Part shown: piece after piece, positions 3,047 through 22,649 of the stretch
Layout: the number at the start of each line of letters is the position of its first letter
Numbering within the stretch: position 1 is the stretch's first letter
Origin: Acidimicrobiales bacterium
GTDB taxonomy: Bacteria > Actinomycetota > Acidimicrobiia > Acidimicrobiales > DASWMK01
Direction of reading: 5' to 3'
DNA: 42,671 nucleotides
Assembly (NCBI GenBank): GCA_036399815.1
Contig: DASWMK010000174.1
Span: 1-42,671 of the forward strand
Notes under the pieces: generated by a model
The model's input: only the letters and a program-made list of their open reading frames with translations
Databases searched by the model: none
Told to the model about the DNA's origin: nothing
Program-made: the position numbers and the translations under genes

Positions 3047-3047
3047 C

Positions 3048-3103: not shown

Positions 3104-3428
3104 AGGGCGTGCCGCCCACCTTCCTCGCGGCCTGAGCGGCGAGCGACCACTCGAGGTCGGTGCACTCCCGGCAGATGCCCGGCGGGTCCTGGTAGGCGCC
3201 ACAGACGGTCGTGCCGTCGCTGAACACCTGGGTGTCGTTGTCGAACACGACGTGGGCGTACTTCACGGTGGTGGACGCGGCGTCGTCGCCGTACACACGG
3301 GTCAGCACGAAACGGGCGAGGGCGGCGAGGCCGGTCTTCGGCCCCTCGCCCAGGCCCCTCGCCTGCCCGAGCTCCTCACCGTCGAGCCGTGTCTCCGGGC
3401 GGGCCTGGCGTCGCTGTCGATCGTCCAC
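3102..3428 (-). CDS. Small hypothetical protein, third gene of a Cys-rich cluster
   Basis: I chose the GTG at 3428 because a purine-rich AGAGGGGGAG sits just upstream. This gives 108 residues. The N-terminal 30 residues are polar and Arg-rich. The rest contains LARFVLTRVYGDD, a segment rich in Thr, Val and Asp, and three cysteines near the end (CGAYQDPPGICREC). I do not recognise a family. Its start lies inside the 3' end of the preceding gene (53-nt overlap), so either that gene's last residues are non-conserved or one of the two boundaries is wrong. It is probably co-transcribed with the two genes at 3376-4136. Confidence 0.5.
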   Translation of the reverse strand: MDDRQRRQARPETRLDGEELGQARGLGEGPKTGLAALARFVLTRVYGDDAASTTVKYAHVVFDNDTQVFSDGTTVCGAYQDPPGICRECTDLEWSLAAQAARKVGGTP

Positions 3429-3849: not shown

Positions 3850-4136
3850 AACGCGCGCTCTTCCCGGATCCAGATGCCGGCGGTGGAACCGTTCCCGGGG
3901 AAGGTCGAAGGGTCGAACCGGCCGGAGTCGCCCAGGCCGCCCGGCGCATCCGCGGCCTCGCGCTCCTTCGGCGCCCGGAAGGCGACGGAGTAGCCGTTGG
4001 CCACGTCGGCCCCGGCCAGCTCGATCAGGACGGCTCGCTGCACGGCGCGCTCGATGCGCGCGTGCAGCTCGTCGGGGAGCGGGACGTCGATCCGGACCTT
4101 GAACTCCTTGGCGGAGCCGGTCGGGCGGTCGGTCAT
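3846..4136 (-). CDS. Small hypothetical protein, first gene of the Cys-rich cluster
   Basis: This 96-residue protein starts at an ATG preceded by an excellent Shine-Dalgarno sequence, AGGAGGT with 5 nt spacing. That makes this start much better than any upstream codon in the open frame. The N-terminal half (KEFKVRIDVPLPDELHARIERAVQRAVL) looks like a beta-strand followed by an amphipathic helix. The C-terminal half is Gly/Pro-rich and ends GIWIREERAL. It contains no cysteine. It is coupled by a 4-nt overlap to the nine-cysteine gene, so the two products may work together. No family was recognised. Confidence 0.65.
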   Translation of the reverse strand: MTDRPTGSAKEFKVRIDVPLPDELHARIERAVQRAVLIELAGADVANGYSVAFRAPKEREAADAPGGLGDSGRFDPSTFPGNGSTAGIWIREERAL

Positions 4137-4164
4137 GTCGGACCTCCTGCTCGGAGCGGCCGCA

Positions 4165-4170
4165 ATGGTA
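4165..4170 (-). promoter_or_regulatory. Candidate -10 element for the Cys-rich cluster
   Basis: TACCAT on the minus strand lies about 28 nt before the ATG at 4136, leaving room for a short leader that carries the AGGAGGT ribosome-binding site. No clear -35 box is seen. Confidence 0.3.
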
Positions 4171-4250
4171 CAGCGCGGACGCACGTGGGGCGACCCGCCG
4201 AAACGGATTCGCCGTCGACGGCTCGGCGGCCGAGCCCGCGCCGGAGGTCC

Positions 4251-4279
4251 TTGACGGGGGTCGGTGGACTCCGTAGGTT
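4251..4279 (+). promoter_or_regulatory. Sigma-70-type promoter of the secreted protein gene
   Basis: TTGACG (4251-4256) and TAGGTT (4274-4279) are separated by exactly 17 nt. This is one of the best matches to a housekeeping promoter in the window. The predicted leader is about 68 nt and ends in AAGGGGG before the ATG at 4354. Confidence 0.55.
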
Positions 4280-4353
4280 CCGGCACTTCCGGGAGCGGCC
4301 GGCGCGCGCTGGGTCACCGTCCCGGCCCGCCGGCCCTGACGCAAGGGGGCAGC

Positions 4354-8527
<4,174 letters not shown>

Positions 8528-8548
8528 TAGCCGGACCCGACGCAGGAC

Positions 8549-8580
8549 GCCACGCGAGCCGCTCCGGCGGCTCGCGTGGC
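8549..8580 (+). terminator. Hairpin terminator after katG
   Basis: GCCACGCGAGCCG pairs perfectly with CGGCTCGCGTGGC: 13 bp with a 6-nt loop, 21 nt after the katG stop. The rest of the gap to 8740 shows only a weak promoter candidate. Confidence 0.7.
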
Positions 8581-8683
8581 CCGTCCGGCTTCCGGCGTTC
8601 GTCCGAGTGGTCCGGTTGCGGCAAGTGGGTGCGGGCCGGCGGCCGGCCGGGTACTGACCCCGTGATCGCGGAGCGTGCCCCGG

Positions 8684-8710
8684 TTGGTACGCTCCGAGGG
8701 ACCGTAACCT
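8684..8710 (+). promoter_or_regulatory. Weak promoter candidate for the MFS gene
   Basis: TTGGTA (8684-8689) and TAACCT (8705-8710) are separated by 15 nt, shorter than optimal. The spacing to the TTG start at 8741 would leave a leader of about 25 nt containing the GGAG ribosome-binding site. Confidence 0.3.
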
Positions 8711-8740
8711 GATCGCAACATCGGCGGATTGGAGCACCCC

Positions 8741-10480
8741 TTGAGCGACGACCTCCCCGTCGCCACGGTGGCGCAGCCAGCGGGCGGATCGGACCGGGCC
8801 GGCGCGGCGCGCGCCGGCGAGGCCGCCGCCGGCGCGCCCGACCAGCGCCCCGGACCGTCGGCGCCGGCCGCATCGTCGCCGACCCCGACCACACCCGACG
8901 AGCGCCCTGGCGCGGCGGCGCTGCGGCCGCACGCGCCGGACGGCACCACGCCGGACGGAGCGCCGGCGGCGTCGTCGCTCGCGGTCACGACCCCGGACGG
9001 TGGGCCGGCGGCGTCCTCGCTGCCGGCCATGACGCCCGACGTCGGGCCGGCGGCGTCGTCGCTGGCGGCCATGACGCCCGACGGTCGGCCGGCGGCGTCG
9101 CCGCGCTCGGTCACGACCCCGGACGGTGGGCCGGCGGCGTCGTCGCTGCCGCCCACCACGCCGGCCGACGGGGCGGCCGAGGGCGCGGCGCACGCGCCCG
9201 CAGCGGGCGAGGCCACGGCGCCGGCCCCGGCCGCGGCCAACGCGCCGACGGCGGGGCGGGACTTCCGGCTCCTCTGGACGGGCCAGTCCGTGAGCCTGCT
9301 CGGCGACCAGTTCATCCTTGTCGCCCTCCCGCTGATGGCCGTGGCCACGCTCGGCGTGTCGGCCGCGCAGGCCGCGCTCCTGCCCTTCGCCATGAAGCTG
9401 CCGTTCCTGCTCCTCGGCCTGCCGGCCGGGGCCATCCTCGACCGGATGCCCCGCCGGCCGGTGATGATCCTGAGCGAGGCCGTCCAGGCCGGGTGCTACC
9501 TGCTCATCGCCGCCCTGGCCGCGGCCGAGGCGCTCCCGTTCGGGCTGCTCATGCTGCTCGTCGCCGTCAGCGGGTGCGCCACCGTGTTCTTCCAGGTCGC
9601 CTACACCTCGTACCTGCCGTCGTTCCTGCGCGAGCCCCGAGCCCTGCACCGGGCCAACGCCCGCCTCCAGCTGTCCGAGTCCGTCTCCCGGTCGCTCGGC
9701 CCGGCGATGGCCGGCCCCCTGATCGCGGCGGCCGGGCCGGTGGGAGCCGTGTTCGCCAACTCGGGCTCGTTCGCCGTGTCGGCCGGCACCCTTTTCGGCA
9801 TCCGCCACCGCGAGCCCCGGCCCGAGGCGGCCGAGCCGGACCGGGGGTGGCTGCGCCGGGAGATCCGGGAGGGCGTCGGCTTCGTCTTCGGCCACCCGAT
9901 CCTCGAGCCGATCCTCATGTGCGGCGCGGTCTACGTGCTGTTCCAGGGGATCGTGATGACGATCATCGTCCTCTACTGCCTCGAGGTGCTGGGCCTGAGC
10001 GAGGCGGCCATCGGCCTGGTCGTCGGGGCGTCGGCGCTCGGCTACCCGACCGGGAACCTGCTCTCGGCCCGCGTCGCCGACCGCATCGGGCCGCTGCGCA
10101 CGATCGTGCTCGGCGCGGCGACGTCCGCCACCGGTTTCGTGCTGATGCCGATCTCGGGGAGCGCCGGCTTCGTCGTCGGGCTGGTCGCCGCCAGCGTCGT
10201 CCACGGGATCGGCGAGGGCATGTTCGGCCCCACCTGGACGACGATCCGCCAGACGGTCACCCCGCCGACCTTGCTCGGCCGGGTCAACTCCGTGGAGCGC
10301 TTCCTGCTGTGGGGCGTGGTCCCGCTGGCCAGCCTGGCCGCGTCCGGCCTCATCTCCTGGATCGGCCTGTCCGGCGCCATGTGGGTCGGCGCCCTCGGCA
10401 CCGTCGCCTGCCTGCCGCCACTGCTGCGCCGCGGCGTCGCTGCCGGGGTGCGGGGCGGGTCGGTCGAGGCCTGGTCCTGA
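8741..10480 (+). CDS. MFS exporter with a long repetitive N-terminal tail
   Basis: The 579-residue protein has two parts. Residues 1 to about 170 are Ala/Pro/Thr-rich, lack hydrophobic segments and contain five 14-residue repeats (TTPDGGPAASSLPA-like). From GRDFRLLWTGQSVSLLGDQF the protein is a typical 12-helix major facilitator of the EntS/MFS_3 type, with AGAILDRMPRRPVMI as the conserved loop between helices 2 and 3. Such transporters export siderophores, peptides or drugs; the substrate is unknown here. I chose the TTG at 8741 because GGAG lies 6 nt upstream. The next gene, a hydrolase, follows after 23 nt and may be co-transcribed. Confidence 0.8.
   Translation: MSDDLPVATVAQPAGGSDRAGAARAGEAAAGAPDQRPGPSAPAASSPTPTTPDERPGAAALRPHAPDGTTPDGAPAASSLAVTTPDGGPAASSLPAMTPDVGPAASSLAAMTPDGRPAASPRSVTTPDGGPAASSLPPTTPADGAAEGAAHAPAAGEATAPAPAAANAPTAGRDFRLLWTGQSVSLLGDQFILVALPLMAVATLGVSAAQAALLPFAMKLPFLLLGLPAGAILDRMPRRPVMILSEAVQAGCYLLIAALAAAEALPFGLLMLLVAVSGCATVFFQVAYTSYLPSFLREPRALHRANARLQLSESVSRSLGPAMAGPLIAAAGPVGAVFANSGSFAVSAGTLFGIRHREPRPEAAEPDRGWLRREIREGVGFVFGHPILEPILMCGAVYVLFQGIVMTIIVLYCLEVLGLSEAAIGLVVGASALGYPTGNLLSARVADRIGPLRTIVLGAATSATGFVLMPISGSAGFVVGLVAASVVHGIGEGMFGPTWTTIRQTVTPPTLLGRVNSVERFLLWGVVPLASLAASGLISWIGLSGAMWVGALGTVACLPPLLRRGVAAGVRGGSVEAWS
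8945..9154 (+). repeat. Five tandem 42-bp repeats in the MFS gene
   Basis: Five consecutive 14-codon units, each (T/M)TPDxxPAASxxxx, fill this stretch, and a sixth partial unit (TTPADG) follows. The copies differ at several positions, so the array is not a recent duplication. It encodes a disordered, proline-rich tail on the cytoplasmic side of the transporter. Confidence 0.85.
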
Positions 10481-10503
10481 ACGCGAGCAACCGAGGAGGA
10501 GCG

Positions 10504-11496
10504 ATGCAGTACGCAGAGGGGACCGACGAGTTCTACGCCCGGTACCACGAGGTGATGCCGGAGGACTTCATCCACCTCGACGTCGCCGAGCAGCGGCGGC
10601 TCTTCGAACGCCTCGGCGACGCCTTCCCGTACGACCTGCCCGACGGCATCCGCGTCGAGCACCACGAGATCACGAGGGACGGCCGTCGGCTCCTGTTCCG
10701 GTCCTACCGGCCCGAGCGACCACGCGGGCGCGGCTTCGTCGTCTACTTCCACGGCGGCGGGTTCGTGGTCGGCTCCCTCGACAGCCACGAGCCGATCGTC
10801 GCCGAGCTGGCCGACCGGACCGGGCTGGTGGCCGTGTCCGCCGAGTTCCCCCACGCCCCCGAGCACCCGTTCCCCGCCGCGCTGGAGGACTGCTACGCCA
10901 TCCTCGGCGCGCTGGCCGAGGACCCGGGCCTCGTCGGCGGCGACGTGGACACCGCCGAGCCCGTCCTCTGCGGCGACAGCTCGGGCGCCAACCTCGCCGT
11001 CGCCCTCTGCATGCTCTGCCGAGATCGGGGCGGCCCCCGCCCGAAGGGCCAGGGCCTCATCGGGCCGGTGCTCGACTTCGCCCGCTGGTTCGACGGCAAC
11101 CCCGAGGTCGACTTCGGCGAGGAGATGCGCCACTACACCCGCTCGTACTGCCCGACCCGCGAGCTGGTCGAGCACCCGTACGCCTCGCCGCTCGTCCACG
11201 GGTCGTTCCACGGCCTGCCGCCGGCCTACGTGATGAGCACCGAGTACGACGAGCTGCGGGAGGACGCCGAGGTCTACGCCGAGCGGCTGCGGGAGCTCGG
11301 CATCCCGGTGCAGCTCGTCGTCGAGCCCGGCCTGCCCCACGCCCCCGTGCGGGGCCGGTCGGTGATCCCCCAGGTGGCCGACGCCTGGCGCCGGTACTGC
11401 GCGGCCGTCGGCCTGCTGGCCGAGCCGGTGATCGACCTCCGCGACGGCGTGCTCACGACGGGGGGTCGGCTGGGGAGCCGAGCAGGAACTCGGTGA
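10504..11496 (+). CDS. HSL-family alpha/beta hydrolase (carboxylesterase)
   Basis: This 330-residue protein belongs to the hormone-sensitive-lipase (alpha/beta hydrolase fold-3) family. It has the HGGG oxyanion motif at 83-86 and the GDSSG nucleophile motif with Ser159. Asp249 (STEYDELRED) and His279 (GLPHAPVRG) complete the probable triad. No signal peptide is present, so it is cytoplasmic. The ATG follows a GAGGAG ribosome-binding site and lies 23 nt after the MFS gene, so the two may share an operon. Its last 44 nt overlap the 3' end of the convergent hydrolase gene. The ester substrate cannot be predicted. Confidence 0.88.
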   Translation: MQYAEGTDEFYARYHEVMPEDFIHLDVAEQRRLFERLGDAFPYDLPDGIRVEHHEITRDGRRLLFRSYRPERPRGRGFVVYFHGGGFVVGSLDSHEPIVAELADRTGLVAVSAEFPHAPEHPFPAALEDCYAILGALAEDPGLVGGDVDTAEPVLCGDSSGANLAVALCMLCRDRGGPRPKGQGLIGPVLDFARWFDGNPEVDFGEEMRHYTRSYCPTRELVEHPYASPLVHGSFHGLPPAYVMSTEYDELREDAEVYAERLRELGIPVQLVVEPGLPHAPVRGRSVIPQVADAWRRYCAAVGLLAEPVIDLRDGVLTTGGRLGSRAGTR

Positions 11497-12247
11497 TCGC
11501 CGGGAGGGCCGCCGGGTCCTCCATGAGGAAGAGGTGGCCGCCCTCGAAGACGCGGAGCCGGGCACCGGGGATGCGCCCGGCGAGCGCCTCGGCGTTGGCG
11601 ACCGGGGCGATCCCGTCGTAGCGGCCGGCGGCGACCAGGGTCGGGGCGGCGATCCGGTCCAGCCGGTCCCACGTGTCGTGCCGGCGGCGGGCGTCGAGCT
11701 GGCGGGGGTTGTAGCGGCCGCGGGCCCCGGCCAGCTCGACCAGGCGGGCGGTCTCCTCGGGGTGCGCCTCCTGCCACGCCCGGCCCAACCGGGTGTCGCC
11801 GACGCCGAGCATCATCCGCAGCCGCTCGTCGTCGGGCAGCCCCTCGACCTCGTGCAGCGGGAACGACGCCCCGCCCGCGCCGCCGCTCGACGTGCAGCAG
11901 AGCACCAGCCGGTCGACCCGCTCGGGATGGCGGATGGCGAGCTCCTGGCCGACCATCCCGCCGAAGGAGGCGCCGACCACGTGGGCCCGCGGCCAGCCGA
12001 CCGCGTCGAGCACGGCGACGGCGTCCTCGGCGTAGTCCTCCATCGTGTACGGCCGCTCGGGCCCGCCGCTGCGGCCCTGGCCCCGGTGGTCGTGGGCGAC
12101 GACCTCGAACCGCTCGGGCAGGGGGCCGTCGAACACGTTCGGCCGCCGGCGCAGGTCGCCGCCGGTGCCGCTCATGTAGAGCAGCGGCGGCCCCTCGCCG
12201 CCCCGCTCGTACCAGAGGTCGACGTCGCCGCTGCGGGCCCAGGCCAC
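11453..12247 (-). CDS. Alpha/beta hydrolase (prolyl-aminopeptidase/3-oxoadipate-lactonase-like)
   Basis: This 264-residue single-domain hydrolase shows Ser94 in the elbow GASFGG, Asp211 in AAGRYDGIAP and His238 in FEGGHLF, the full catalytic triad. DHRGQGRS at about 53-60 is the usual segment before the elbow. The sequence fits the large group annotated as 3-oxoadipate enol-lactonase-like or general hydrolases, whose substrates cannot be read from sequence. It starts at a GTG 20 nt after the receiver-protein gene on the same strand and so may be the last gene of the ABC exporter operon. Its end overlaps the opposing hydrolase gene. Confidence 0.88.
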   Translation of the reverse strand: MAWARSGDVDLWYERGGEGPPLLYMSGTGGDLRRRPNVFDGPLPERFEVVAHDHRGQGRSGGPERPYTMEDYAEDAVAVLDAVGWPRAHVVGASFGGMVGQELAIRHPERVDRLVLCCTSSGGAGGASFPLHEVEGLPDDERLRMMLGVGDTRLGRAWQEAHPEETARLVELAGARGRYNPRQLDARRRHDTWDRLDRIAAPTLVAAGRYDGIAPVANAEALAGRIPGARLRVFEGGHLFLMEDPAALPAITEFLLGSPADPPS

Positions 12248-12267
12248 GGCGGGACGCTACCGGGCGG

Positions 12268-13023
12268 CTACCCGGTGACGGCCGCCATGGCGGTCATGGC
12301 GTCGCACGTGCCGTCGAGGACGTGCACCGCGGCGGTGGCGGCCGGGCCCGGCCACGTGGCGGCGAGGCGACCGAGGACGGCGCGGGCCCCCTCGGCCCGC
12401 CCGCCCACGAGGAGGACGACGAGGACGTCGCGGCGGAGGATGATCCGGTCCTGCTGGCGCACGACCCGGCGGACGTCCTCGGCCAGCACGGCCGCCGGCG
12501 TGCCGTCGACGTAGATGCCGACGAGCGCGTCGCCCGCCTCGGCGGCCGCCAGCGCGCCGTAGAACTCGCTCGGGTCGTCCACGCCCGTCGCCGCCCGCAG
12601 GCTGGGCGTGCCGATCGTCCTCGTCGGCCGGCGCCGCTCGGCCGCGGACGGGCCGAAGCCGAGGTCCGACAGGGCGCCGTCGATGGCCCGGCCGAGCCCG
12701 TCGAGGTCGGGCTTGTCGACCACCCGGATGCCCTGCCCCTCGAGGTCGCGCACCGTCGACGCGTACCAGGTGAACACCACGATCTGGCACGGCGCGCCCC
12801 GCTCCCGCACGTGGCGCACCACGTCGATGCCCGACCCGAACGTGAGGGCCATGTCGACCACCACGAGGTTGGCCTCGAACCGGTCGATGAGGTCGATGGC
12901 GTCGAAGCTCCGGTCCGCCTCGGCCAGCACCGACCCACCCCGGTCCTCCACGAACGCGGTGATCGTCGACCGCGCCGCCCGATCGCCGTCGCACACCACT
13001 GCCCGAACCCCGTCCGCCGCCAT
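12268..13023 (-). CDS. Receiver-domain protein with an unassigned C-terminal domain
   Basis: Residues 1 to about 120 form a two-component receiver domain with the expected acidic pair Asp12/Asp14, phospho-acceptor Asp57 (LVVVDMAL), Thr85 and Lys104 (VVDKPD). The C-terminal 110 residues are not a DNA-binding domain. A stretch around VRRVVRQQDRIILRRDV followed by LVVLLVGG vaguely resembles a degenerate GGDEF fold that lacks the signature. The total is 251 residues. The ATG has AGAGGTGAG upstream and lies 5 nt past the permease stop. No histidine kinase is encoded nearby, so its partner is elsewhere. Confidence 0.75.
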   Translation of the reverse strand: MAADGVRAVVCDGDRAARSTITAFVEDRGGSVLAEADRSFDAIDLIDRFEANLVVVDMALTFGSGIDVVRHVRERGAPCQIVVFTWYASTVRDLEGQGIRVVDKPDLDGLGRAIDGALSDLGFGPSAAERRRPTRTIGTPSLRAATGVDDPSEFYGALAAAEAGDALVGIYVDGTPAAVLAEDVRRVVRQQDRIILRRDVLVVLLVGGRAEGARAVLGRLAATWPGPAATAAVHVLDGTCDAMTAMAAVTG

Positions 13024-13028
13024 GTCGC

Positions 13029-13853
13029 TCACCTCTCGTCCGCCACGCCCAACAACCGGGCCCTCGTCACCGACCGGATGCCCCGGTGCAGCGACCACGC
13101 CGCCAGCGCCCACGCCACCGCGCCGATCCACCACGAGGCCGACGCCGCGCCGAACAGCGCGCCCGTCGACTGCCCGTAGGCGACCATGATCAGCGGCAGG
13201 GTCACGAGCCCCGACGCCTGCTGGGCGGCCGCCGTCGACTTCACCCTCGCCGACAGCCGCAGCACGAGCGACAGGGCGAGGGCGAGGAACGGCGGCACCA
13301 CCCACAGCATCAGCACCCACCACGGGCCGGTCGGGAAGAACCAGCCCCCGACGCCGGGCCCGACCACCGTGTTGACGACGAGGGAGTACACGCCGAAGCC
13401 GACGGCGGTCGTCAGGTAGCCGGGGACCAGGCTGGCCAGCACCTTGCCCAGGTAGATCTCGTGCACGCCGGCGGGGGAGTGGGCGAGGAACTCGCCGGTC
13501 CCCCGCTCCCGCTCGCCGACCAGGGTGGCGGCCCCGACGGCCGTCGAGATCGTGAGGGGGACGACCACGGCCACCGGGGCGAACAGGAACACGGCGAGGG
13601 CGTAGGACGACCGGGCGGCGGGCGAGTCGCCCTTGATGGCCGCCTGCGCGCTCGGGGGCAGGACGGCGAGCGCCTCGCTCACCTGGGACACGGCCTCCAC
13701 GTCGCCGAGGCGGGTGATCGAGAGCAGCAGCACCAGCGGGATGACGAGGAAGAACAGGCTGCCGAGCGCGGCCATCGGGATCCAGAAGTCCCTGGCCTGG
13801 CGGAGCTGGCGCAGGTCCGTCCTCGTGATCGTCAGCAGACGGCCGCCGTTCAC
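13029..13853 (-). CDS. ABC-2-type transporter permease
   Basis: The 274-residue membrane protein has about six hydrophobic segments, beginning with IPMAALGSLFFLVIPLVLLL. It contains the segment LVGERERGTGEFLAHSP, typical of ABC-2 permeases, where it precedes a coupling helix. A soluble loop of about 35 residues lies between the first two helices. The GTG start overlaps the ATPase stop in a GTGA arrangement, so the two subunits are co-translated. Together they would form an exporter for an unknown substrate such as a drug, peptide or lipid. The receiver-domain gene follows after 5 nt. Confidence 0.85.
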   Translation of the reverse strand: MNGGRLLTITRTDLRQLRQARDFWIPMAALGSLFFLVIPLVLLLSITRLGDVEAVSQVSEALAVLPPSAQAAIKGDSPAARSSYALAVFLFAPVAVVVPLTISTAVGAATLVGERERGTGEFLAHSPAGVHEIYLGKVLASLVPGYLTTAVGFGVYSLVVNTVVGPGVGGWFFPTGPWWVLMLWVVPPFLALALSLVLRLSARVKSTAAAQQASGLVTLPLIMVAYGQSTGALFGAASASWWIGAVAWALAAWSLHRGIRSVTRARLLGVADER

Positions 13854-14821
13854 GCCGCGGCCACCTCCGTGGCCGGGGCGGCGCCGGCGGGGCGGCGGCG
13901 GACGGCGAAGTACAGGTCCTCGAGGCTCGGGGTGACCGGCTCGACGCGGGTCAGCCGGGCGCCGGACGCGGCGAGGGCGGCGACGAGGTCGGGGACCCGG
14001 TCGAGGTCGTCGAGGCGGACGGCGAGGGACCGGTCGTCCCGCCACTCGCCGCCGAGCACGCCGGGCAGGCCGGCCAGCGCGTCGAGCGCGGCCGGGTCCT
14101 CGGCGCCGATGCGGACGACGGCGCCCGGCCAGTAGCGCTCGGCCAGGTCGGCCGGGGTGCCGGCCACGAGGTCGGCGCCGGCGTCCATGACGACGACGTG
14201 GTCGGCCAGGCCCTCGGCCTCGAGCAGGAGGTGGGTGCACATGACGACGGTGGTGCCCTCGGCCGTCATCTCCCTGATCAGCTCGAGCACGGCGTGGGAC
14301 GACTCGGGGTCGAGGCCGGAGGTCGGCTCGTCGAACAGCAGCAGCTCCGGGCGGTGCAGCACCGAGCGGGCCAGCGCCAGCCGGGTCTTCATCCCGGTGG
14401 AGTAGCCGCCCACCTGCTGGTCGAGGGCGTGGTCGATGCCGAAGCGGGCGGACGCGGCCCGGATGGGCCCGTCCATCGCCGACCCGAGCCCGTACAGCGC
14501 GGCCGCGTAGGCGAGGTTGTCCCAGCCGGAGAGCCGGTCGTACAGCGCCGGCTTGGCCGACACCACGCCGCACCGGCGCCGCACCTCCTCGCCCTCGCCG
14601 GCCGCGGCCGGGTCGAGCCCGAACACCCGCACCGTGCCGCGGTCGGGGCCGAGCGCCCCGGTGATCATGCGGATGGCCGTCGTCTTCCCCGCGCCGTTGG
14701 GACCGAGGAGGACCGTGATCCGCCGGGCCGGCACGGCGAGGCTCAGCCCGGCCAGGGCGGGCACCGGGCCGAAGGCCCGGTGGACCGTGTCGAGGGCGAC
14801 GACGGAATCGCTCACCCGCAC
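13850..14821 (-). CDS. ABC transporter ATP-binding protein
   Basis: This 323-residue ATPase is of the CcmA/DrrA exporter type. Walker A is GPNGAGKTT at 40-48, the signature is GGYSTGM at about 138-144, where the usual LSGG is replaced by YSTG, and Walker B with the catalytic Glu is [12 protein letters not shown] at about 160-171. The C-terminal 100 residues after [12 protein letters not shown] form the regulatory extension common in this subfamily. GTG starts are possible at 14821 and 14815. It is the first gene of a minus-strand operon with the permease, the receiver-domain protein and probably a hydrolase. Confidence 0.93.
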
Positions 14822-14873
14822 CTCATCGGCACCATCGGCGGCGGGTTCACCCGGAACGGCGCCCGGCGTGGCC

Positions 14874-14879
14874 TACCCT
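14874..14879 (+). promoter_or_regulatory. Probable -10 element of a leaderless peroxiredoxin promoter
   Basis: TACCCT lies 6 nt before the GTG at 14886. The 64-nt gap to the divergent ABC ATPase gene must hold both promoters. Confidence 0.4.
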
Positions 14880-14885
14880 GCGGGG

Positions 14886-15389
14886 GTGGTGGGACCGACG
14901 GCCGGCGGCGAGGGCGTGGCCGTCGGCGACGTCGCCCCGGACTTCGCCCTCCCCGGCACCGGCGGCCGCACCTACCGCCTGTCCGAGCTGCGGGGCCGCA
15001 CGGTCGTCCTCGTCTTCTACCCGGGCGACGCCACGCCGGTGTGCACCCGCCAGCTCACGAGCTACACGACCGACTGGGACCGCTTCGCCGCCCTCGGCGC
15101 CCAGCTGCTCGCCATCAGCCCGCAGTCGGTGGAGAGCCACGAGTCCTTCAGCGGCGCCCACGGGTTCCCGTTCCCGCTCCTCGCCGACGAGGACCGCTCG
15201 GTCGGCCGGGCCTACGGCGTGCTCGGGCCCCTCGGGTTCTACCGGCGCTCGGTGTTCGTGGTCGACGCCGGCGGCATCGTCCGCTACCGCCACCGGTCGC
15301 CCCACAGCCTGACCTTCCGCCCGTCCGACGCGCTCGTCGAGGCCGTCCTGGCCGCCGACCGGGCGGCGCCGGCCGGCGGGCAGGGCTAG
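14886..15389 (+). CDS. Peroxiredoxin of the BCP/PrxQ (AhpC-TSA) type
   Basis: The thioredoxin-fold peroxidase has 167 residues. The peroxidatic motif is PGDATPVC with Cys53, preceded by the conserved Pro46 and Thr50. In most PrxQ proteins a resolving Cys lies five residues after the first; here that position is Thr58 (CTRQLTSY), and no other Cys is present. The enzyme therefore probably works by a one-Cys mechanism with an external thiol. It lacks a signal peptide. GTG codons at 14886 and 14889 are both possible. It complements KatG in peroxide defence. Its stop is 6 nt from that of the convergent aminopeptidase gene. Confidence 0.88.
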
Positions 15390-15395
15390 CTGCTC

Positions 15396-16826
15396 CTACT
15401 GGGCGCGGAACCCGCAGGCCAGCTCGACGAGGGTACGGACGCCGAACCCGGTGGCGCCCGCCGTCCACTCGCCGTCGTCCTCGTCGCACCACGCCGGCCC
15501 GTTCACGTCGAGGTGGGCCCACGGCAGGCCGGCCGGGACGAACTCCCGCAGGAACAGCGCCGCCACCACCGACTGCCCGTGGCGGTTGCCGGTGGCGTTC
15601 ACCAGGTCGGCCACCTTGGACTCGATCATCCTCGGGTCGACGCCGTCGAGGGGGAGCGGCCACACGAGCTCGCCGGCCCTGGCCGCCGCCGCCCCGACCT
15701 CCGCCACCCACCCCTCGTCGTTCCCGGCCAGCCCGGCGTAGCGCCGGCCGACGGCCATGGCGACGGCGTCGGTGAGGGTGGCGACGTCGACGACGGCGTC
15801 GGGCCCCTCCTCGCCGGCCAGGGCGAGGGCGTCGGCCAGGATGAGGCGGCCCTCGGCGTCGGCGTTGCGGACCTCGACGGTGCGCCCGTTGCGGGTGCGC
15901 AGCACGTCGCCCAGCCGCATGGCGTCGCCCCCGGCCATGTTGTCGGTCAGGGGCAGCCAGCCGACCACCCTCGCCCGGCAGCCGACGGCCGGGAGGGCCG
16001 ACATGGCGGCGAGCACGGCGGCGGCGCCGGCCATGTCGATCTTCATGTCGACCATGAACGAGTTCGGCTTCAGGGTCAGGCCGCCGGAGTCGAACGTGAC
16101 GCCCTTGCCGACGAGGGCGAGCGTGCCGGCCGGGTCGGGCGGTCGCCACTCGAGGCGGACGAGGCAGGGCGGCTGGGCCGAGCCCCTGGCCACGCCGAGC
16201 AGGCCGCCCAGGCGCTCGGCGGCGAGGCGCTCGCCGGTCCACACCTCGGCGTCGACGCCGGCCGACGCGGCCACCTCGAGGGCCCGGTCGGCGAAGGCGG
16301 GCGGGGTCAGGGTGCCGCCGGGCTCGTTGCCGAGGTCCCGCGCCAGGGCGACGGCGGCGGCCACGGCGCCGGCCCTGCGGAGGTCGTCCTCGGCGGCGCC
16401 GGGGGCCACGACCACGAGCCGCTCGGCCCCGTCCGGGCGGGCGGCCGACTTGTAGCGGGTGAACCGGTAGAGGCCGAGCCGCCAGGCCTCGGCCACGAGG
16501 CGGGCGGCGTCGGCCGGCCAGCTGCCGTCGGCCGGGACGGTGAACGCCGTCGTGCGGTGGCCGCGCGCCGCCCTGGCCGCCCCGGCCGCGGCCCGGCGGA
16601 CGGTGGCGGCGTCGCCGGCGCCCGACGGGCCGGCCCCGACCACGATCGTCGCCGGCCCGCCGTCGACCGGGGGGAGCGCCCTGGCGTCGCCGGGCCGGCC
16701 GGTGAACCCGGCGGCGGCGAGGAAGGCGGCGGCCGGGGCCCGGTCCAACCGGTCGGCGTGCACGGGGACGACGACGGCGTCGACCCCGTCGGGCACGGCC
16801 GGCGCCAGCTCGACCTCGACGGTCAC
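15396..16826 (-). CDS. M17 leucyl aminopeptidase-family enzyme
   Basis: This 476-residue cytosolic dizinc aminopeptidase removes N-terminal residues from peptides. Metal-binding and catalytic signatures are visible: GKGVTFDSGGLTLKP (Lys and Asp ligands), DMKIDMAGAAAVL, and NADAEGRLILADAL, a variant of the NTDAEGRL signature with Ala in place of Thr. The N-terminal 160 residues form the poorly conserved M17 N-domain. The GTG at 16826 is the only plausible start after the preceding gene's stop, 38 nt away, and has no strong ribosome-binding site. It is the last gene of the minus-strand cluster that includes a 30-residue peptide, so a role in trimming that peptide is possible but not shown. Confidence 0.9.
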   Translation of the reverse strand: MTVEVELAPAVPDGVDAVVVPVHADRLDRAPAAAFLAAAGFTGRPGDARALPPVDGGPATIVVGAGPSGAGDAATVRRAAAGAARAARGHRTTAFTVPADGSWPADAARLVAEAWRLGLYRFTRYKSAARPDGAERLVVVAPGAAEDDLRRAGAVAAAVALARDLGNEPGGTLTPPAFADRALEVAASAGVDAEVWTGERLAAERLGGLLGVARGSAQPPCLVRLEWRPPDPAGTLALVGKGVTFDSGGLTLKPNSFMVDMKIDMAGAAAVLAAMSALPAVGCRARVVGWLPLTDNMAGGDAMRLGDVLRTRNGRTVEVRNADAEGRLILADALALAGEEGPDAVVDVATLTDAVAMAVGRRYAGLAGNDEGWVAEVGAAAARAGELVWPLPLDGVDPRMIESKVADLVNATGNRHGQSVVAALFLREFVPAGLPWAHLDVNGPAWCDEDDGEWTAGATGFGVRTLVELACGFRAQ

Positions 16827-16863
16827 CGCCCCCGCCGCCCCGCGGCGCCGGAGGGCGACGGCG

Positions 16864-19356
16864 TCACCGGCGCCGCTCCGCCCCCCACGCCTCCAGCCCG
16901 CCGGCGTACTCGGCGGCCAGCGAGCCCATGCCGTCGGTCGCCACCCGGCGCCAGCCCCGCGCCGCGGACACGGCGTACGGGTCGACCCGCAGGGCCTGCA
17001 CGAACGCGTCCTCGGCGACGACGGCGTTCCCGGCCCGCTCGTGGCACTCGCCGGCCATGGCGCTGGCGATCGCCGTGCCGAGCGGGCCGAGGCGGGCGGC
17101 CCGCAGGTAGCTGTCGCCGGCCTCGGCGTAGCGGCCCTGCTTGGCCAGGCACTCGCCCAGCTCGATGTGGCTCTTCGGGTCGTAGGGGTCGAGGGCGAGG
17201 AACTCCCTCGTCCTCGCCTCGGCCAGGGCCACGTCGCCCAGCGCGTACGCCTCCTTCGACCGGCTCTCCAGGCAGGCGTGCAGGTTCTCCCTGGCCAGCA
17301 GCTCCTCGAGCGGCGTCGACGCCGGCACCGCCCTGGCCAGCTCCTCGGCCCGGTCCATGTCGGCCACCATGCCATCCCGGTCGCCGGTCATGTGCGGGGT
17401 GAACCCGGCCCCCCGGTAGAAGCGGCTCTCGAGCATGGTCCGCTCGAACGGGGTGAACTCGTCGCTCGTCAGCACGTCGGCGAGGTGCTCGGCCGCCCGG
17501 GCCCGCCACCGCAGGGCGTCGTCGACCGACTTCGTCTCCCTCGCCGCGAACACGATCCCGAACGTCGACACCGTGAGCCGCAGGTGGAGCGGGCAGCCGG
17601 GGGCGTCGACCATCTCGAACGAGTCGGTCGGGTGGACCGGGTGGCGGCTGCCGACCGAGGCGACGTAGCGGGTCAGGTCCCGCCACTGCCACTGGTAGAA
17701 CTCGAGCGGCTCGCGCAGGCTCGACACCGGCCGGTGGGGGACGAGGTCGAGGACGAGGTCCCGGAAGCCCAGCCGGAACAGCAGCAGGCACGTCAGGTGC
17801 TGGCGCAGCAGGTCGGAGCGGTCGAAGTCGGCGACCCACTCGCACAGCTGCTCCCAGGCCGGCGTGCGGAGGTGGGGCGGCACGTCGGCCGGGTGGCGGG
17901 CGGCGAGCTCGGCCAGCCCCGACTCGCGCACGAGGTTGGTGCGGAAGGCCGGCGGCATCACCCGCTGGAAGTCGATCCTCGGCGGCCGGCCGGCGACCGC
18001 CGCCCGGTAGGCGTGGGTGGGGATCGAGGCGTACAGGCACGGCGAGCCCGACTCGCCGAGGTCGAAGTAGGCGGCGTACATGCGGTGGTGCCAGTTGGCC
18101 CGGTGGCCGTCGGCCGGCTCGGCCACGAGGGCGGCGAGAGGCCCGTCGCCGGTCGCCTCGCAGGCACGGACGAGCGCGGCCCGGGTCTGCTCGGACCGGG
18201 GCGCGGCGCGGAAGGCCCGCTCGCACAGCACCCTGGCCAGCTCCTCGGACCCGAGCCGGCCGGCGCAGGATGCCGCCCGCAGCAGGGCGAAGGCCCCGCC
18301 GTAAGGGCCGAGGCGGGCGGCGACCAGGTAGCCGGCCAGCGCGCCGGGCAGGTCGCCCCGGCGCTCGGCGGCCTGGGCCGCCTGCATGCGGATCTTCACG
18401 CACCACGGGTCGAGCTTGAGGCCCTCGGCGATCGCCGCCTCCTCGGCGTCCCGGTCGCCGAGCTGGACGGCGATCTCGACCCGGCGGTCGACGATGCGCC
18501 GCCGCATCTCGGCCGCCACCTCCTCCTGCTCGGGCGACGCCGGCGCGCCCGCGGCGGCCACCAGGCCGGCCTCGTCGAGCACGGCCCAGGCGCCGGCCGG
18601 GTCCTTGCGCCGGTCGGCGAGCATCGCCTCGCGCACGAGCAGGCGGGCCCGCCAGATGCCGCGGTCGAAGGCCGGCAGGCCGGGCGCCAGCTCGTCGAGG
18701 ATGGCCGCGGCCCGGCGGGCGTGGCCGTCGGCCGCCGACCAGTCCTCGGCGTGGCGGGCGAGCGTGTAGCTCCACGCCGCGCACGCCTGGAGGTGGGCGA
18801 CGGTGGGCTCGGGGCGGTCGACCAGCGCGGCGAAGGCCGCCCTCGTCGCGTCGGTGAGCCCGGCCAGCTGGAACGACGCCGTCGCCCTGGCGTACTGGAC
18901 GAGCGCCGGCAGCGCCTCCCGGCAGGCGGCGGGGTCGAGGTCGGCGGGGGCGAGGTCGAGGACGGCGCGGGGCAGGCAGGCGGCGACCAGCCACAGCGCC
19001 AGGCCGGCCCGGTCGGCGTCGTCGAGGTCGTCGCGGCGGGCGAAGGCGTCGGCCATGGCCGCCCAGGCCGGCGAGGCCAGGCCGGCCGGCAGGTCGGCCG
19101 GGCGCTCGGCCCGGTACTCCCGCAGGCGCGACTCCTCGACGAGGAGGGTGCGGAAGCTGGCCGGCATCACCATGCCGAACCGGGGCGCCTCCGGCCGCCG
19201 GGCGGCGAACAGGCGGGCGGCCACCACCGGGCCCTTCGCCTGGATGGCGGTGATCGGCGCGGCCTCGCCGTCGAAGTAGGGCCGGTGGACCTCGAAGGTC
19301 AGCCAGCTCGGGGCGGCCACGCCCACCCGGCCGTGGCTCCGTTCCCAGCGATCCAT
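16864..19356 (-). CDS. 830-residue internally duplicated TPR protein of unknown function
   Basis: The protein consists of two homologous halves of about 415 residues. Each begins with a beta-rich segment and the motif VMPASFRTLLVEES (63-76) or VMPPAFRTNLVRES (466-479), followed by ADLP/ADVP and then an all-helical part. Each ends with a tetratricopeptide region: LDPWCVKIRMQAAQAAERRG at about 315 and LDPYDPKSHIELGECLAKQG at about 722, then YLVAARLGPYG or YLRAARLGPLG. There is no signal peptide or membrane segment. TPR arrays usually bind peptides or proteins; the gene lies 85 nt after a 30-residue peptide gene, which is the obvious candidate ligand. The ATG has GGAGGGGGG 7 nt upstream. No known enzyme motif is seen. 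Confidence 0.8.
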   Translation of the reverse strand: MDRWERSHGRVGVAAPSWLTFEVHRPYFDGEAAPITAIQAKGPVVAARLFAARRPEAPRFGMVMPASFRTLLVEESRLREYRAERPADLPAGLASPAWAAMADAFARRDDLDDADRAGLALWLVAACLPRAVLDLAPADLDPAACREALPALVQYARATASFQLAGLTDATRAAFAALVDRPEPTVAHLQACAAWSYTLARHAEDWSAADGHARRAAAILDELAPGLPAFDRGIWRARLLVREAMLADRRKDPAGAWAVLDEAGLVAAAGAPASPEQEEVAAEMRRRIVDRRVEIAVQLGDRDAEEAAIAEGLKLDPWCVKIRMQAAQAAERRGDLPGALAGYLVAARLGPYGGAFALLRAASCAGRLGSEELARVLCERAFRAAPRSEQTRAALVRACEATGDGPLAALVAEPADGHRANWHHRMYAAYFDLGESGSPCLYASIPTHAYRAAVAGRPPRIDFQRVMPPAFRTNLVRESGLAELAARHPADVPPHLRTPAWEQLCEWVADFDRSDLLRQHLTCLLLFRLGFRDLVLDLVPHRPVSSLREPLEFYQWQWRDLTRYVASVGSRHPVHPTDSFEMVDAPGCPLHLRLTVSTFGIVFAARETKSVDDALRWRARAAEHLADVLTSDEFTPFERTMLESRFYRGAGFTPHMTGDRDGMVADMDRAEELARAVPASTPLEELLARENLHACLESRSKEAYALGDVALAEARTREFLALDPYDPKSHIELGECLAKQGRYAEAGDSYLRAARLGPLGTAIASAMAGECHERAGNAVVAEDAFVQALRVDPYAVSAARGWRRVATDGMGSLAAEYAGGLEAWGAERRR

Positions 19357-19389
19357 CGTCCGACCCCCCTCCTCGGCGCAAGGACGACC

Positions 19390-19423
19390 GGGCCCCGCGG
19401 CGCGAGCTCGCGCCGCGGGGCCC
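19390..19423 (-). terminator. Perfect 34-bp palindrome: hairpin or attenuator after the small peptide gene
   Basis: GGGCCCCGCGGCGCGAG is followed immediately by its exact reverse complement, a 17-bp perfect dyad (realistically a stem of about 15 bp with a 4-nt loop). It lies 18 nt after the stop of the 30-residue peptide gene and 33 nt before the TPR gene. It has no T-tract. Such a hairpin could end or slow most transcription, or protect the short message, so that the peptide is made in excess over the downstream proteins. Confidence 0.7.
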
Positions 19424-19441
19424 TGGTGCGAGGACGTCTGC

Positions 19442-19534
19442 TCAGGCGTCCAGGAAGCAGGTCCAGCAGTCGGCGACGCCGGTCGTCACCTCGACCTCGT
19501 CCGCCAGCTCCTCCCACGTCTCGTAACGCGGCAT
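19442..19534 (-). CDS. 30-residue Cys-containing peptide (candidate RiPP precursor)
   Basis: The ATG at 19534 is preceded by AAGGGAG with 7 nt spacing, one of the better ribosome-binding sites in the cluster. The peptide begins MPRYETWEEL, continues with an acidic Glu/Asp/Val stretch and TTG, and ends DCWTCFLDA. The acidic helical N-terminal part resembles a leader. The short C-terminal end, with two Cys in a CxxC pattern and aromatic Trp and Phe, resembles a modified core. Upstream on the same strand are a class V aminotransferase and an MFS exporter; downstream are a hairpin, a duplicated TPR protein and an M17 peptidase. No lanthipeptide, YcaO, radical SAM or ATP-grasp enzyme is nearby. 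It could also be a signalling or toxin peptide. Confidence 0.7.
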   Translation of the reverse strand: MPRYETWEELADEVEVTTGVADCWTCFLDA

Positions 19535-19571
19535 GCAAATGCTCCCTTCGTCGAGGGGAATGGTGAGCCTC

Positions 19572-19600
19572 AATGTCAGGGACGACGACCGCGTTGTCAA
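19572..19600 (-). promoter_or_regulatory. Candidate promoter of the 30-residue peptide gene
   Basis: A consensus -35 box, TTGACA (19595-19600 on the minus strand), overlaps the TGA stop of the aminotransferase gene. Seventeen nt further is GACATT (19572-19577), a partial -10 match. Transcription would begin about 30 nt before the ATG at 19534, so the peptide could be transcribed independently of the upstream genes. Confidence 0.5.
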
Positions 19601-20709
19601 CCCTCAATCCGGTCCGGGATCGCCGCGAGGAAACGGTCGATCTCGTCGTCGCCCGTCCAGAAGTGGGCCGAGATCCGGATCTTCCCATCGGGGAATGAGA
19701 CGGCAAACCCGGAAGCAATGAGGTCGGCATGCAGGCGGTCGGCGCCCGGCGCCGAGAACGACACGATCCCCGAGCGGGCCGCCTCGCCGTCCCGGCCGAG
19801 CACCTCGAGGCCCCGGCCGGCCAGCCCCTCCCGGAGGCGGGCGGCGAGGGCCAGGACCCGGGCGGCGACGGCGTCGGGCCCGGCCGCCTCGAGCTCGGCC
19901 AGGGCGGCGGCCAGGCCGGCGATGCCGACGAAGTTCGGCATGCCGCCCTCCACCCGGCGGGCGCCGGGGCGCAGCGGCAGGTCGTAGGTGAAGTGGCCCT
20001 CGCCCCGGACCAGCAGGTCCTGGGAGCGGTCGAAGCCGAACCAGCCGGCCGGCGCCCGGCGCAGCAGGTCGAGGCGGTCGCGGCGGCAGTAGAAGACGCC
20101 GGTGCCGGGCGGCGCGCACAGCCACTTGTGGCCGCCGGCGGCGAGGAAGTCGACCGGCGCGGCCCGCACGTCGACGGGCAGGGCGCCGAGGCTCTGGACG
20201 GCGTCGACGCACACCAGCGCGCCCGCGGTGGCGGCCACCCGGCACACGGCGGCGAGGTCGATCCGGAAGCCGGTGAGGAAGTGCACGTGGCTGACCGCGA
20301 CCAGGCGGGTGGACGGCCCGACGGCGGCGGCGACGTCGGCGAGGTCGTAGCCGCCGTCCCGCTCCGGCACCCAGCGGAGGACGACGCCCCGGTCGGCGAG
20401 GCGGCGCCAGGGCTGGACGTTGGCCGGGAAGTCGCGGTCGAACACGACGACCTCGTCGCCCGGTCGCCACTCGAGCCCGTCGGCCACCAGGTGGAGGCCG
20501 GTGCTCGTGTTGGGCACGAGGGCGACCTCGTCGTCGTCGCAGCCGAGCAGGCGGGCCGTGGCCGAGCGGGCCGCCTCCCTCGCCGCGAAGAACCGGCCGT
20601 ACGCCGCCGACCCGGTGGCCAGCACCTCGTCGGCGGCCTCGTGGACGGCGGCCACGGCGGCCGGGCGGACGAGCCCGATGCCGGCGTAGTCCAGGTAGGC
20701 GCCGGCCAT
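19597..20709 (-). CDS. Class V aminotransferase-fold PLP enzyme
   Basis: This 370-residue protein belongs to the class V aminotransferase / cysteine desulfurase / isopenicillin-N-epimerase superfamily. Cofactor-site residues are visible: VPNTSTGLH (phosphate), SHVHFLTG, CVDAVQSLG with the Asp that pairs with the pyridine nitrogen, and the Schiff-base Lys in AAGGHKWLCAPPGTG. There is no obvious catalytic Cys loop of the NifS type, so desulfurase activity is doubtful. The ATG overlaps the MFS stop by one base (TGATG), so the two are co-translated. It lies 62 nt before the small peptide gene. The substrate is unknown, and it could act on that peptide or on a free amino acid. Confidence 0.88.
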   Translation of the reverse strand: MAGAYLDYAGIGLVRPAAVAAVHEAADEVLATGSAAYGRFFAAREAARSATARLLGCDDDEVALVPNTSTGLHLVADGLEWRPGDEVVVFDRDFPANVQPWRRLADRGVVLRWVPERDGGYDLADVAAAVGPSTRLVAVSHVHFLTGFRIDLAAVCRVAATAGALVCVDAVQSLGALPVDVRAAPVDFLAAGGHKWLCAPPGTGVFYCRRDRLDLLRRAPAGWFGFDRSQDLLVRGEGHFTYDLPLRPGARRVEGGMPNFVGIAGLAAALAELEAAGPDAVAARVLALAARLREGLAGRGLEVLGRDGEAARSGIVSFSAPGADRLHADLIASGFAVSFPDGKIRISAHFWTGDDEIDRFLAAIPDRIEG

Positions 20710-21941
20710 CAGCGGTCGCCGACGGGCGCCAGCTCGCGGGGCGCCTGCGTGCCGGCGACCGTCCACAGCGCGGCGCCGATGGCGGCGGCGACCGGGATCC
20801 CGTGCAGGATCAGCACGTACCCGGCCACCCAGTCGGGGGCGGCGACGAGCGACGTCACCAGCAGGCCGACCACGAACCCGGCGTTGACGACCACCTGGGC
20901 CAGGCCGAACACGCTGCCCCGCCTGGCGTCGGGCAGGTGCTGGACGGCCTGCTTGAACGTGATCTCGCTGAACGCGTCGCCGAGGCCGGCGACGGCGGCG
21001 GCGGCGAGCATGGCCGGCCACGGGTCGAGCCAGAAGATGGCGATGAACCCGGCCGACATGACCGAGGTCGCCAGGTAGAACACCAGCTGGGGGGCCCGCT
21101 CGATGACGGCGGCCAGGGCGGGGCGGAGGACGAGGCTGCCGAAAAGGGTCCCGGCCGCCCACGCCATCCACAGCGCGCCGGTGACCGAGGCCGGGTTGGC
21201 GGGGTCGCGCTCGCCGCCGAGCACGGGCAGGCCGACGTGGTGGGACGAGCTGCCGAAGGCGTCGAGGCCCCGGACGACGACCAGCCCGAGGATGCCGGCG
21301 CCGGCGAGCGCGGCCCAGCCCGGCGCCGGTCCCCGCCGGCCGGCCGCCAACCGCGTGTCGTCGAGGTCGTCGCCCTCGTCCTCCCGGAGGCGGAGGGGCA
21401 GGGTCAGCACGGCCAGCGCCGAGACGCCGTAGGTGGCGGCGTCGAGCGCGAACACGCCGCGGAACCCGACGACGGGGACGGCGATCGTCGCCAGCCCCAT
21501 GCCGACCACCAGCGCGGCCCCCTTGATGCCCGAGACCACGCTGTTGACCAGCTGGACCCGGCCCTTGGCGAGGGCCGGCGTGGCCGCGGCCAGGGTCGCC
21601 TCGAACACCGACCGGCCGGCGCCCACGACGACCACGGCCGGGAACAGCCAGCCGAGCTGCGCGCCCGACGGCACGACGGCCAGCACGACGAGGGCGGCCA
21701 TGCGGACGAGGTCGGCGGTGAGCATGGCCCGCCGGCGGTCCCACCGGCCGCCCCACCGGTGGCCGAGGCGCCCGCCGACGATGCCGCCGCCGTAGAGGCA
21801 CAGCCCCACGAGCCCGGTGGCGAGCACCGACTCGGTGCGCACCCAGACGAACACGCCGATGCACACGAAGTCGAGCGCGAACCCGACGTCGGAGACGGCC
21901 TTCGCCGTCAGCAGGCCGACGACCGGGAGGGAGGGCTTCAT
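20709..21941 (-). CDS. MFS transporter
   Basis: This 410-residue membrane protein has about 12 hydrophobic helices and the MFS loop GGRLGHRWGGRWDRRRAML between helices 2 and 3. A short, acidic, Arg-rich cytoplasmic loop (LREDEGDDLDDTRLAAGRR) separates the two six-helix halves. It resembles EntS-like and macrolide-type exporters. It is the first gene of the minus-strand cluster and is coupled to the aminotransferase by a TGATG overlap, so an export role for the cluster's product is plausible. The ribosome-binding site is weak. A TATCCT hexamer at 21979-21984 (minus strand) could be its -10 element. Confidence 0.88.
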   Translation of the reverse strand: MKPSLPVVGLLTAKAVSDVGFALDFVCIGVFVWVRTESVLATGLVGLCLYGGGIVGGRLGHRWGGRWDRRRAMLTADLVRMAALVVLAVVPSGAQLGWLFPAVVVVGAGRSVFEATLAAATPALAKGRVQLVNSVVSGIKGAALVVGMGLATIAVPVVGFRGVFALDAATYGVSALAVLTLPLRLREDEGDDLDDTRLAAGRRGPAPGWAALAGAGILGLVVVRGLDAFGSSSHHVGLPVLGGERDPANPASVTGALWMAWAAGTLFGSLVLRPALAAVIERAPQLVFYLATSVMSAGFIAIFWLDPWPAMLAAAAVAGLGDAFSEITFKQAVQHLPDARRGSVFGLAQVVVNAGFVVGLLVTSLVAAPDWVAGYVLILHGIPVAAAIGAALWTVAGTQAPRELAPVGDR

Positions 21942-22138
21942 CGGGCGGCCACCACGGGGTCTTGGTCGGGGCACGCGCAGGATAGATGGTCGGCTTCGGC
22001 GCCGTGCCGTCGCCCACCATTGCCGGTAGAGGCCCGTCCGGGTGGAGCGGGTATTTCGGGAAAGGTAAAGCCGCTGTTTGCTCGGCCGGTGCAAGGAACG
22101 GCGGCCGGAGGGTCCACCAGCCGGTCGGCCCGGCGGGG

Positions 22139-22144
22139 TAGCGT
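22139..22144 (+). promoter_or_regulatory. Probable -10 element of a leaderless ruvC promoter
   Basis: TAGCGT lies 7 nt before the ruvC GTG. The 210-nt gap between the divergent MFS and ruvC genes also contains a distinctly A/T-richer patch (22050-22085), probably promoter DNA, but no clear -35 box was found there. Confidence 0.4.
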
Positions 22145-22151
22145 CGAACCC

Positions 22152-22649
22152 GTGTTCGTCCTCGGCATCGACCCTGGGCTCTCGCGGTGCGGCTACGGCG
22201 CCGTCGACCAGCCCGCCGGCGGCCGGCCCCGGGCGGTGGCCATCGGCGTGCTGACGACCAGCCCGGACCTCGACCTGCCCGTCCGGCTGGCCGCCCTCCA
22301 GCGGGAGGTGCGGGGCCTGCTCACCGAGCTCCGGCCGGACGTCGTCGCCGTCGAGCGGGTGTTCTTCCAGCGCAACGTGCGCACGGCGATGTCGGTCGGC
22401 CAGGCGAGCGGGATCGCCATGGCCGAGGCGGCGGCCGCCGGGTGCGCCGTGCACCAGTACTCGCCCAACCAGGTGAAGGAGGCGGTGGCCGGCTGGGGGG
22501 CGGCACCGAAGGAGCAGGTCGAGCGGATGGTCCAGACCCTGCTCGGGCTCGACCGGCCGCTCAAGCCGGACGCGGCCGACGCCACCGCCCTCGCCCTCTG
22601 CCACCTGGCGATGGCGCCGCTGCTCACCCGGCTGGCGGCCCGGTCGTGA
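22152..22649 (+). CDS. ruvC: Holliday junction resolvase RuvC
   Basis: RuvC cuts Holliday junctions symmetrically during recombination repair. The 165-residue protein shows the four-acid RNase H-type active site: Asp7 (GIDPGLSRCGYG), Glu in VAVERVFFQRN, and the two acids in KPDAADATALALCH near the C-terminus. The length is normal. The GTG start is preceded by a -10-like TAGCGT at 7 nt, which suggests leaderless translation. The stop overlaps the ruvA GTG by 4 nt. Confidence 0.97.
   Translation: MFVLGIDPGLSRCGYGAVDQPAGGRPRAVAIGVLTTSPDLDLPVRLAALQREVRGLLTELRPDVVAVERVFFQRNVRTAMSVGQASGIAMAEAAAAGCAVHQYSPNQVKEAVAGWGAAPKEQVERMVQTLLGLDRPLKPDAADATALALCHLAMAPLLTRLAARS

Follow-up and report, generated by a model that had tools for sequence, protein, structure and literature searches.

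The whole stretch of DNA that was analysed (42,671 nt) is referred to here as the window. Its minus strand carries, in order of transcription, genes for an MFS exporter (20709..21941, 410 aa, ATG start; Pfam MFS_1, E 2e-21), a class V (fold type I) PLP enzyme whose ATG overlaps the MFS stop (19597..20709, 370 aa; Pfam Aminotran_5, E 9e-46), a short peptide, a TPR-type solenoid protein (16864..19356, 830 aa; Pfam TPR) and an M17 leucyl aminopeptidase (15396..16826, 476 aa, GTG start; Pfam Peptidase_M17, E 1.5e-106), which are the neighbours that the original prediction had named. The peptide gene (19442..19534, minus strand) runs from ATG to TGA over 30 codons and encodes the 30 aa peptide MPRYETWEELADEVEVTTGVADCWTCFLDA, with the C-terminal end DCWTCFLDA. 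A ribosome binding site, AAGGGAG (19542..19548, minus strand), lies 7 nt 5' of the ATG; the complete frame, its site and its end were thus borne out as first described. The mechanical ORF list has the frame begin further upstream, at an in-frame TTG (19600; 52 aa); the ATG was retained because the homologues and the Shine-Dalgarno site favour it and because the upstream gene ends at 19597. A purine-rich Shine-Dalgarno site was also present 5' of every peptide homologue. No further copy of the peptide was found in the window's own genome by protein search, and a 29-nt DNA match on another contig (G000:C57) was dismissed as a chance match inside an unrelated gene.

These five genes (about 6.5 kb), termed here the cassette, are located inside an insert of roughly 19 kb (window 3046-22159) that parts yebC (2297-3046) from ruvC (about 22159-22649). 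The surrounding housekeeping block consists of pdxS-pdxT-yebC and ruvC-ruvB-yajC-secD-relA-hisS, two groups that adjoin in the normal arrangement. The insert also carries a peroxidase-family gene (4823-8527, plus strand), a second MFS gene (8729-10480, plus strand), alpha/beta hydrolases, a response-regulator-like gene and an ABC ATPase. No standard maturase was seen in the window when its main predicted genes were scanned against Pfam, in agreement with the original prediction.

Relatives were first sought in GTDB 220 contigs (one genome per species) with the TPR protein as query. Two were obtained (55% identity), from Longispora albida (Micromonosporaceae) and Kitasatospora sp. MBT63, and at both loci a peptide-like frame (MEARYETWENLAEDVEITTAQSDVWACFLADDAA and MAYESWESLADEVEISTGAADCWTCLIDDAA, respectively) lies between an aminotransferase-like gene and the TPR gene. 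A profile made from the three peptides (window, Longispora, Kitasatospora) was used for family scans, and homologues were detected in 14/347 Streptomycetaceae genomes (Kitasatospora included; E 2.8e-19 to 9.8e-14) and in 2/251 Micromonosporaceae genomes (Longispora included; E 4.1e-20 and 5.4e-14). The check that had been suggested, a search for peptide frames near homologues of the TPR protein, was therefore positive at 16 further loci, each in another genome; with the window, 17 loci have a homologous frame at the same place, always between a class V PLP enzyme and a TPR protein of the 830-residue type. In a separate TPR profile search of 249 Streptomycetaceae, the full-length TPR protein was found in exactly the 14 genomes with the peptide, and this co-occurrence (14/14) makes the TPR protein a search handle for further members and for the product. 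One genome (G936), the only one of the Streptomycetaceae with two copies, carries a tandem pair of peptide genes that differ slightly (MAYESWEMLTDEVEVTTGSADCWTCLVDDAA and MAYESWESLADEVEITTGAADCWTCLMDDAA; L062 9883-9978 and 10021-10116).

Elsewhere the searches were negative. The 99 genomes of the window's own order gave chance-level peptide matches only and no credible relative, among 237 genomes sampled from the class to which Longispora belongs, none beyond Longispora itself had a peptide relative, and among 397 genomes (own order plus a phylum sample) the only copy of the TPR protein was that of the window. No family in Pfam or NCBIfam matched the peptide. Peptide matches in four genomes (G816, G1193, G1213, G1361; E near 0.01) were partial and within longer frames, and were rejected. 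Two plasmid matches (Streptomyces cavourensis and Streptomyces sp. S8; E about 1) were also rejected; the one of the two that was examined, in S. cavourensis, sits inside a 327-aa gene.

The gene order MFS - PLP enzyme - peptide - TPR - M17 was recovered by tblastn, with like spacing, wherever the contig reaches far enough. Clustering of all frames around the 17 loci gave no other conserved genes beyond the four large recurrent ones, which are 53-60% (MFS), 55-67% (PLP), 53-63% (TPR) and 49-65% (M17) identical to the window proteins. In the 14 other loci with enough contig on that side, the MFS protein is found at the corresponding position, and the M17 peptidase is a fixed member of the cassette. 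The link between the peptide and its neighbours, originally an inference, now has behind it a five-gene order that is fixed in all loci. In one genome (G839; L073 10217-12758) the TPR gene is broken up over different frames, with tblastn pieces 1-403, 390-499 and 499-819, owing to either a frameshift or an assembly error. In the TPR tree, the window protein pairs with that of G1130, a genome from the search of the Longispora family, with support of 100/99 and with Longispora outside; the same pairing is seen in the M17 tree. This pairing, together with the absence of the cassette from the other sampled genomes of its own order, suggests that the cassette in the window was acquired by horizontal transfer.

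Among the 15 distinct peptide sequences, residues E5, W7, E8, L10, V14, E15, T18, D22, W24 and C26 (window numbering) are invariant, and Y4, D12, E13, A21, C23, T25 and D29 are nearly so. Conservation covers both halves of the peptide, as YE(S/T)WExLxDEVE and ADCWTC, and most of the variation falls in the first few positions and the last 3-5. The leader-plus-core layout that had been proposed did not hold up, as no split into a conserved and a variable part is visible. The CxxC pair that had been reported is present in the window and is not invariant: the Longispora peptide (L031 7783-7887) has DVWAC in place of DCWTC, with the rest of its cassette intact, and the invariant core is D-x-W-x-C. 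This natural variant narrows the choice of residues that could serve as the substrate, and a disulfide or cystine within CxxC is disfavoured as the general substrate of the PLP enzyme because Longispora is without the first Cys. In every comparison with the window peptide the rate of nonsynonymous changes per site was below that of synonymous ones (averages over all peptide pairs: pN 0.15, pS 0.35), and, judged by these rates, the peptide is under purifying selection; the coding constraint named beforehand as a test is present. The codon for C26 is TGT in 12 of the 18 peptide copies, which is unusual in host genomes whose codons almost always end in G or C.

A strong hairpin (19387..19426, minus strand; best 40-mer, -41 kcal/mol) lies between the peptide and TPR genes. 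It was found in 17/17 loci, with z-scores of -3.1 to -8.3 against dinucleotide shuffles (window, -6.3), in a peptide-TPR gap of 79-125 nt, and in the tandem pair it follows the second copy only. The hairpin is likely to be a differential-expression element or a partial terminator: directly 3' of a small gene, such a structure would be expected if the peptide is made in excess over the downstream proteins.

The TPR protein consists of two related halves and is all-helical in its AlphaFold2 model (pLDDT 89). No enzyme domain was found hidden in it by Pfam or Foldseek, the Foldseek matches being TPR scaffolds only, and neither method found a DNA-binding domain. The protein also has remote relatives of half its size, about 28% identical to one of its halves, that are encoded next to exporters. 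Two of them (L034, L107) have MFS genes downstream; on the Kitasatospora purpeofusca plasmid (L034 8001-11723) the half-size TPR gene is followed by genes for a Pfam-less protein and an MFS exporter, and a small frame, MAEQTQVNDDIYTDLEGTEAISASVHLD (L034 7841-7927), lies directly upstream. A putative, distinct peptide cluster in G855 (L106 2528-9556, minus strand) combines a half-size relative and a small peptide frame with genes for an arginase-family enzyme, a MATE exporter, a beta-propeller protein and an M3 peptidase.

For the PLP enzyme, the nearest solved relatives in a PDB profile search were SufS-type cysteine desulfurases (CsdA too) and the cystine C-S lyase C-DES. The AlphaFold2 model (pLDDT 82) had a TM-score of 0.85 to C-DES (1elq), the highest among the matches listed, and also 0.85 to 1n2t. 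The enzyme has the PLP fold of C-DES and SufS/CsdA in common, as well as the PLP lysine (K195), which is invariant in the alignment of the cassette enzymes. The catalytic loop Cys that marks cysteine desulfurases (SufS/NifS) is missing and no Cys is conserved there; a desulfurase-like fold with the PLP Lys and without the Cys loop is the arrangement of C-DES. The cassette enzyme is only about 26% identical to C-DES and SufS/CsdA and, unlike them, is encoded in a peptide operon.

The M17 protein matches the NCBIfam leucyl aminopeptidase model above cut-off, and the metal and catalytic motifs are preserved throughout the cassette members. Its best solved relative is 5lhj (E 3.5e-101; 343 bits, versus 234 for the next), which we take to be the bottromycin maturation peptidase BotP, also of family M17; an M17 fold with an intact active site, as expected of a BotP-type enzyme, is found here too. 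In the M17 tree, the cassette proteins group in a single clade (93/93), next to which stands a second M17 aminopeptidase of the window's own genome (G000:C50 13595-15037; 52% identical to the cassette enzyme), and 5lhj joins this clade and two other M17 proteins on a long branch (support 80/54). Descent of the cassette enzyme from BotP is not claimed, because 5lhj joins lower in the tree and with weak support.

BotP, an M17 enzyme whose structure has been solved, cleaves the N-terminal Met off the bottromycin precursor (PMC10885120), and the same activity was demonstrated by assay for its orthologue BtmM (PMC5103208). In the bottromycin cluster, as in the cassette, an M17 leucyl aminopeptidase adjoins a short precursor. 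That cluster also contains a YcaO enzyme, a radical-SAM methyltransferase and an amidohydrolase, whereas the conserved cassette has none of these and has a PLP enzyme and a TPR protein instead; the peptides are unrelated, and the YcaO cyclodehydratase pair and GPVVVFDC-type core of bottromycins are missing from the cassette. A TPR protein and an MFS exporter are encoded in the biphenomycin (bip) cluster (BipB/BipC; PMC12707348) and in the pbs cluster (PMC12026744), and the ammosamide cluster has AmmC2 (PMC12424672). Likened by gene content, the bip and pbs clusters bring together a peptide, an MFS exporter, a TPR protein and a metallopeptidase, as the cassette does, but they have MNIO, B12-radical-SAM and arginase-type enzymes and a FHAFRF-type core that the cassette does not. 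The main text of the decRiPPter survey describes 18 ungrouped candidate families from Streptomyces, with Cys/Ser/Thr-rich small precursors and aminotransferases, and does not name the cassette (PMC7794033). No paper on the D-x-W-x-C peptide motif or on the five-gene combination was found in the literature searched, and the cassette looks like an undescribed RiPP-like system.

We consider it probable (about 0.68) that the peptide is the precursor, and thus the substrate, of a five-gene RiPP-like cassette, with predicted roles in binding (TPR), modification (PLP), trimming (M17) and export (MFS). With the hairpin in place, the peptide would be made in excess over the cassette proteins. The two-lobed TPR solenoid may bind the acidic segment YE(S/T)WExLxDEVE and present the peptide, and the M17 aminopeptidase would shorten it from its N-terminus. 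Once an alpha-amine has been freed, the PLP enzyme could act on the D-x-W-x-C region; alternatively, it could use free cyst(e)ine and deliver sulfur to the invariant Cys26. The product would leave via the MFS exporter. Fold-type-I PLP enzymes normally need a free amino acid or a free N-terminus; since they act on free alpha-amino groups, either prior trimming of the peptide or a free amino acid substrate would be required.

The possibility of a RiPP-like or signalling-peptide system, as first put forward, is supported, the tests of TPR neighbourhood and coding constraint having been passed. The cassette has the short encoded precursor and dedicated neighbouring genes that are expected of a RiPP system, and a peptidase and an exporter wherever the contig reaches. 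The precursor reading is favoured by the five-gene synteny with no other gene conserved around it, by the strict co-occurrence of peptide and full-length TPR protein in Streptomycetaceae and by the presence of the hairpin 3' of the peptide gene(s) in every locus. Sequence constraint points the same way, in the apparent purifying selection on a peptide with an invariant D-x-W-x-C and in the retention of PLP Lys195 and the M17 motifs in all members. Tandem paralogues are a common habit of precursor genes, and the pair in G936 was counted on this side. Arguments by analogy may be added: 5lhj, taken to be BotP, as the best solved M17 match, the TPR protein and MFS exporter of the known RiPP clusters bip and pbs together with AmmC2 of ammosamide, and the half-size TPR relative in the other small-peptide cluster (G855). 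Against the precursor reading, the conserved unit contains no class-defining maturase (LanM, YcaO, radical SAM, ATP-grasp etc.) and the cassette no recognisable RRE, action of a PLP enzyme on an internal residue is not obvious (the weakest point of the proposed mechanism), and both peptide halves are conserved, unlike the usual variable core that accompanies a conserved leader. In addition, the grouping of the cassette enzymes with 5lhj in the M17 tree is not firm, and enzymes of this family commonly serve housekeeping functions. The further proposal of a new ribosomal peptide class, in which the D-x-W-x-C of a 30-residue precursor would be modified, on a TPR scaffold, by a PLP enzyme resembling cystine lyase before M17 trimming and export, is tentative and falls a little short of an even chance; we know of no RiPP class with PLP-enzyme chemistry on such a motif.

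With just 30 codons, the frame could have been a spurious one within an intergenic region, an explanation that is practically excluded, since 16 other genomes have homologues in the equivalent position (E as low as 4e-20); a real gene, and no chance frame, is confirmed. The peptide could also be an attenuator leader, with translation of the Cys/Trp-rich frame controlling the hairpin and hence the expression of the TPR and M17 genes, as a short frame with Trp and Cys codons is directly followed by a strong hairpin in 17/17 loci. In an attenuation leader only the regulatory codons would be conserved, ahead of alternative hairpins; here, although a hairpin is present, the whole peptide is conserved, including residues of YExWExLxDEVE that have no regulatory sense. 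The deficit of nonsynonymous changes, the tandem copies with a hairpin after the second only and the replacement of the first Cys in Longispora also speak against attenuation, which we regard as very improbable.

Two other roles of the peptide were considered, and both are unlikely. As a signalling peptide, unmodified or lightly trimmed, it would leave the cell through the MFS protein, the TPR protein would sense or buffer it in a manner similar to Rap-type proteins, and the M17 enzyme would degrade it. TPR folds bind short peptides, as Rap-type TPR proteins do, and an exporter and an aminopeptidase are present; but the TPR protein has no DNA-binding domain, the cassette has no conserved regulator, the fixed PLP enzyme is left without a role, and the peptide hardly diverges between species, as signalling peptides usually do. 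Alternatively, the peptide might be a small carrier or partner of the cystine-lyase-like PLP enzyme, either as a persulfide sulfur acceptor on Cys26 or as a scaffold for a small metabolite, by a logic comparable to that of the SufE/CsdE acceptors and the carrier peptides of pearlins. The resemblance of the PLP enzyme to SufS, CsdA and C-DES, the invariance of Cys26 but not of the other Cys, and the near-absence of core variation would suit a carrier. The absence of the desulfurase Cys loop, the lack of a conserved downstream sulfur-using or tRNA-dependent ligase gene and the aminopeptidase fixed in the cassette do not.

The cassette is compact and strictly conserved, but none of its enzymes is among those by which RiPP clusters are currently mined, and such searches may therefore miss it. 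RRE domains bind the precursor in many RiPP systems, and the cassette suggests that TPR solenoids can take this role. If the PLP enzyme acts on the peptide, a PLP-based transformation would be added to ribosomal peptide chemistry.
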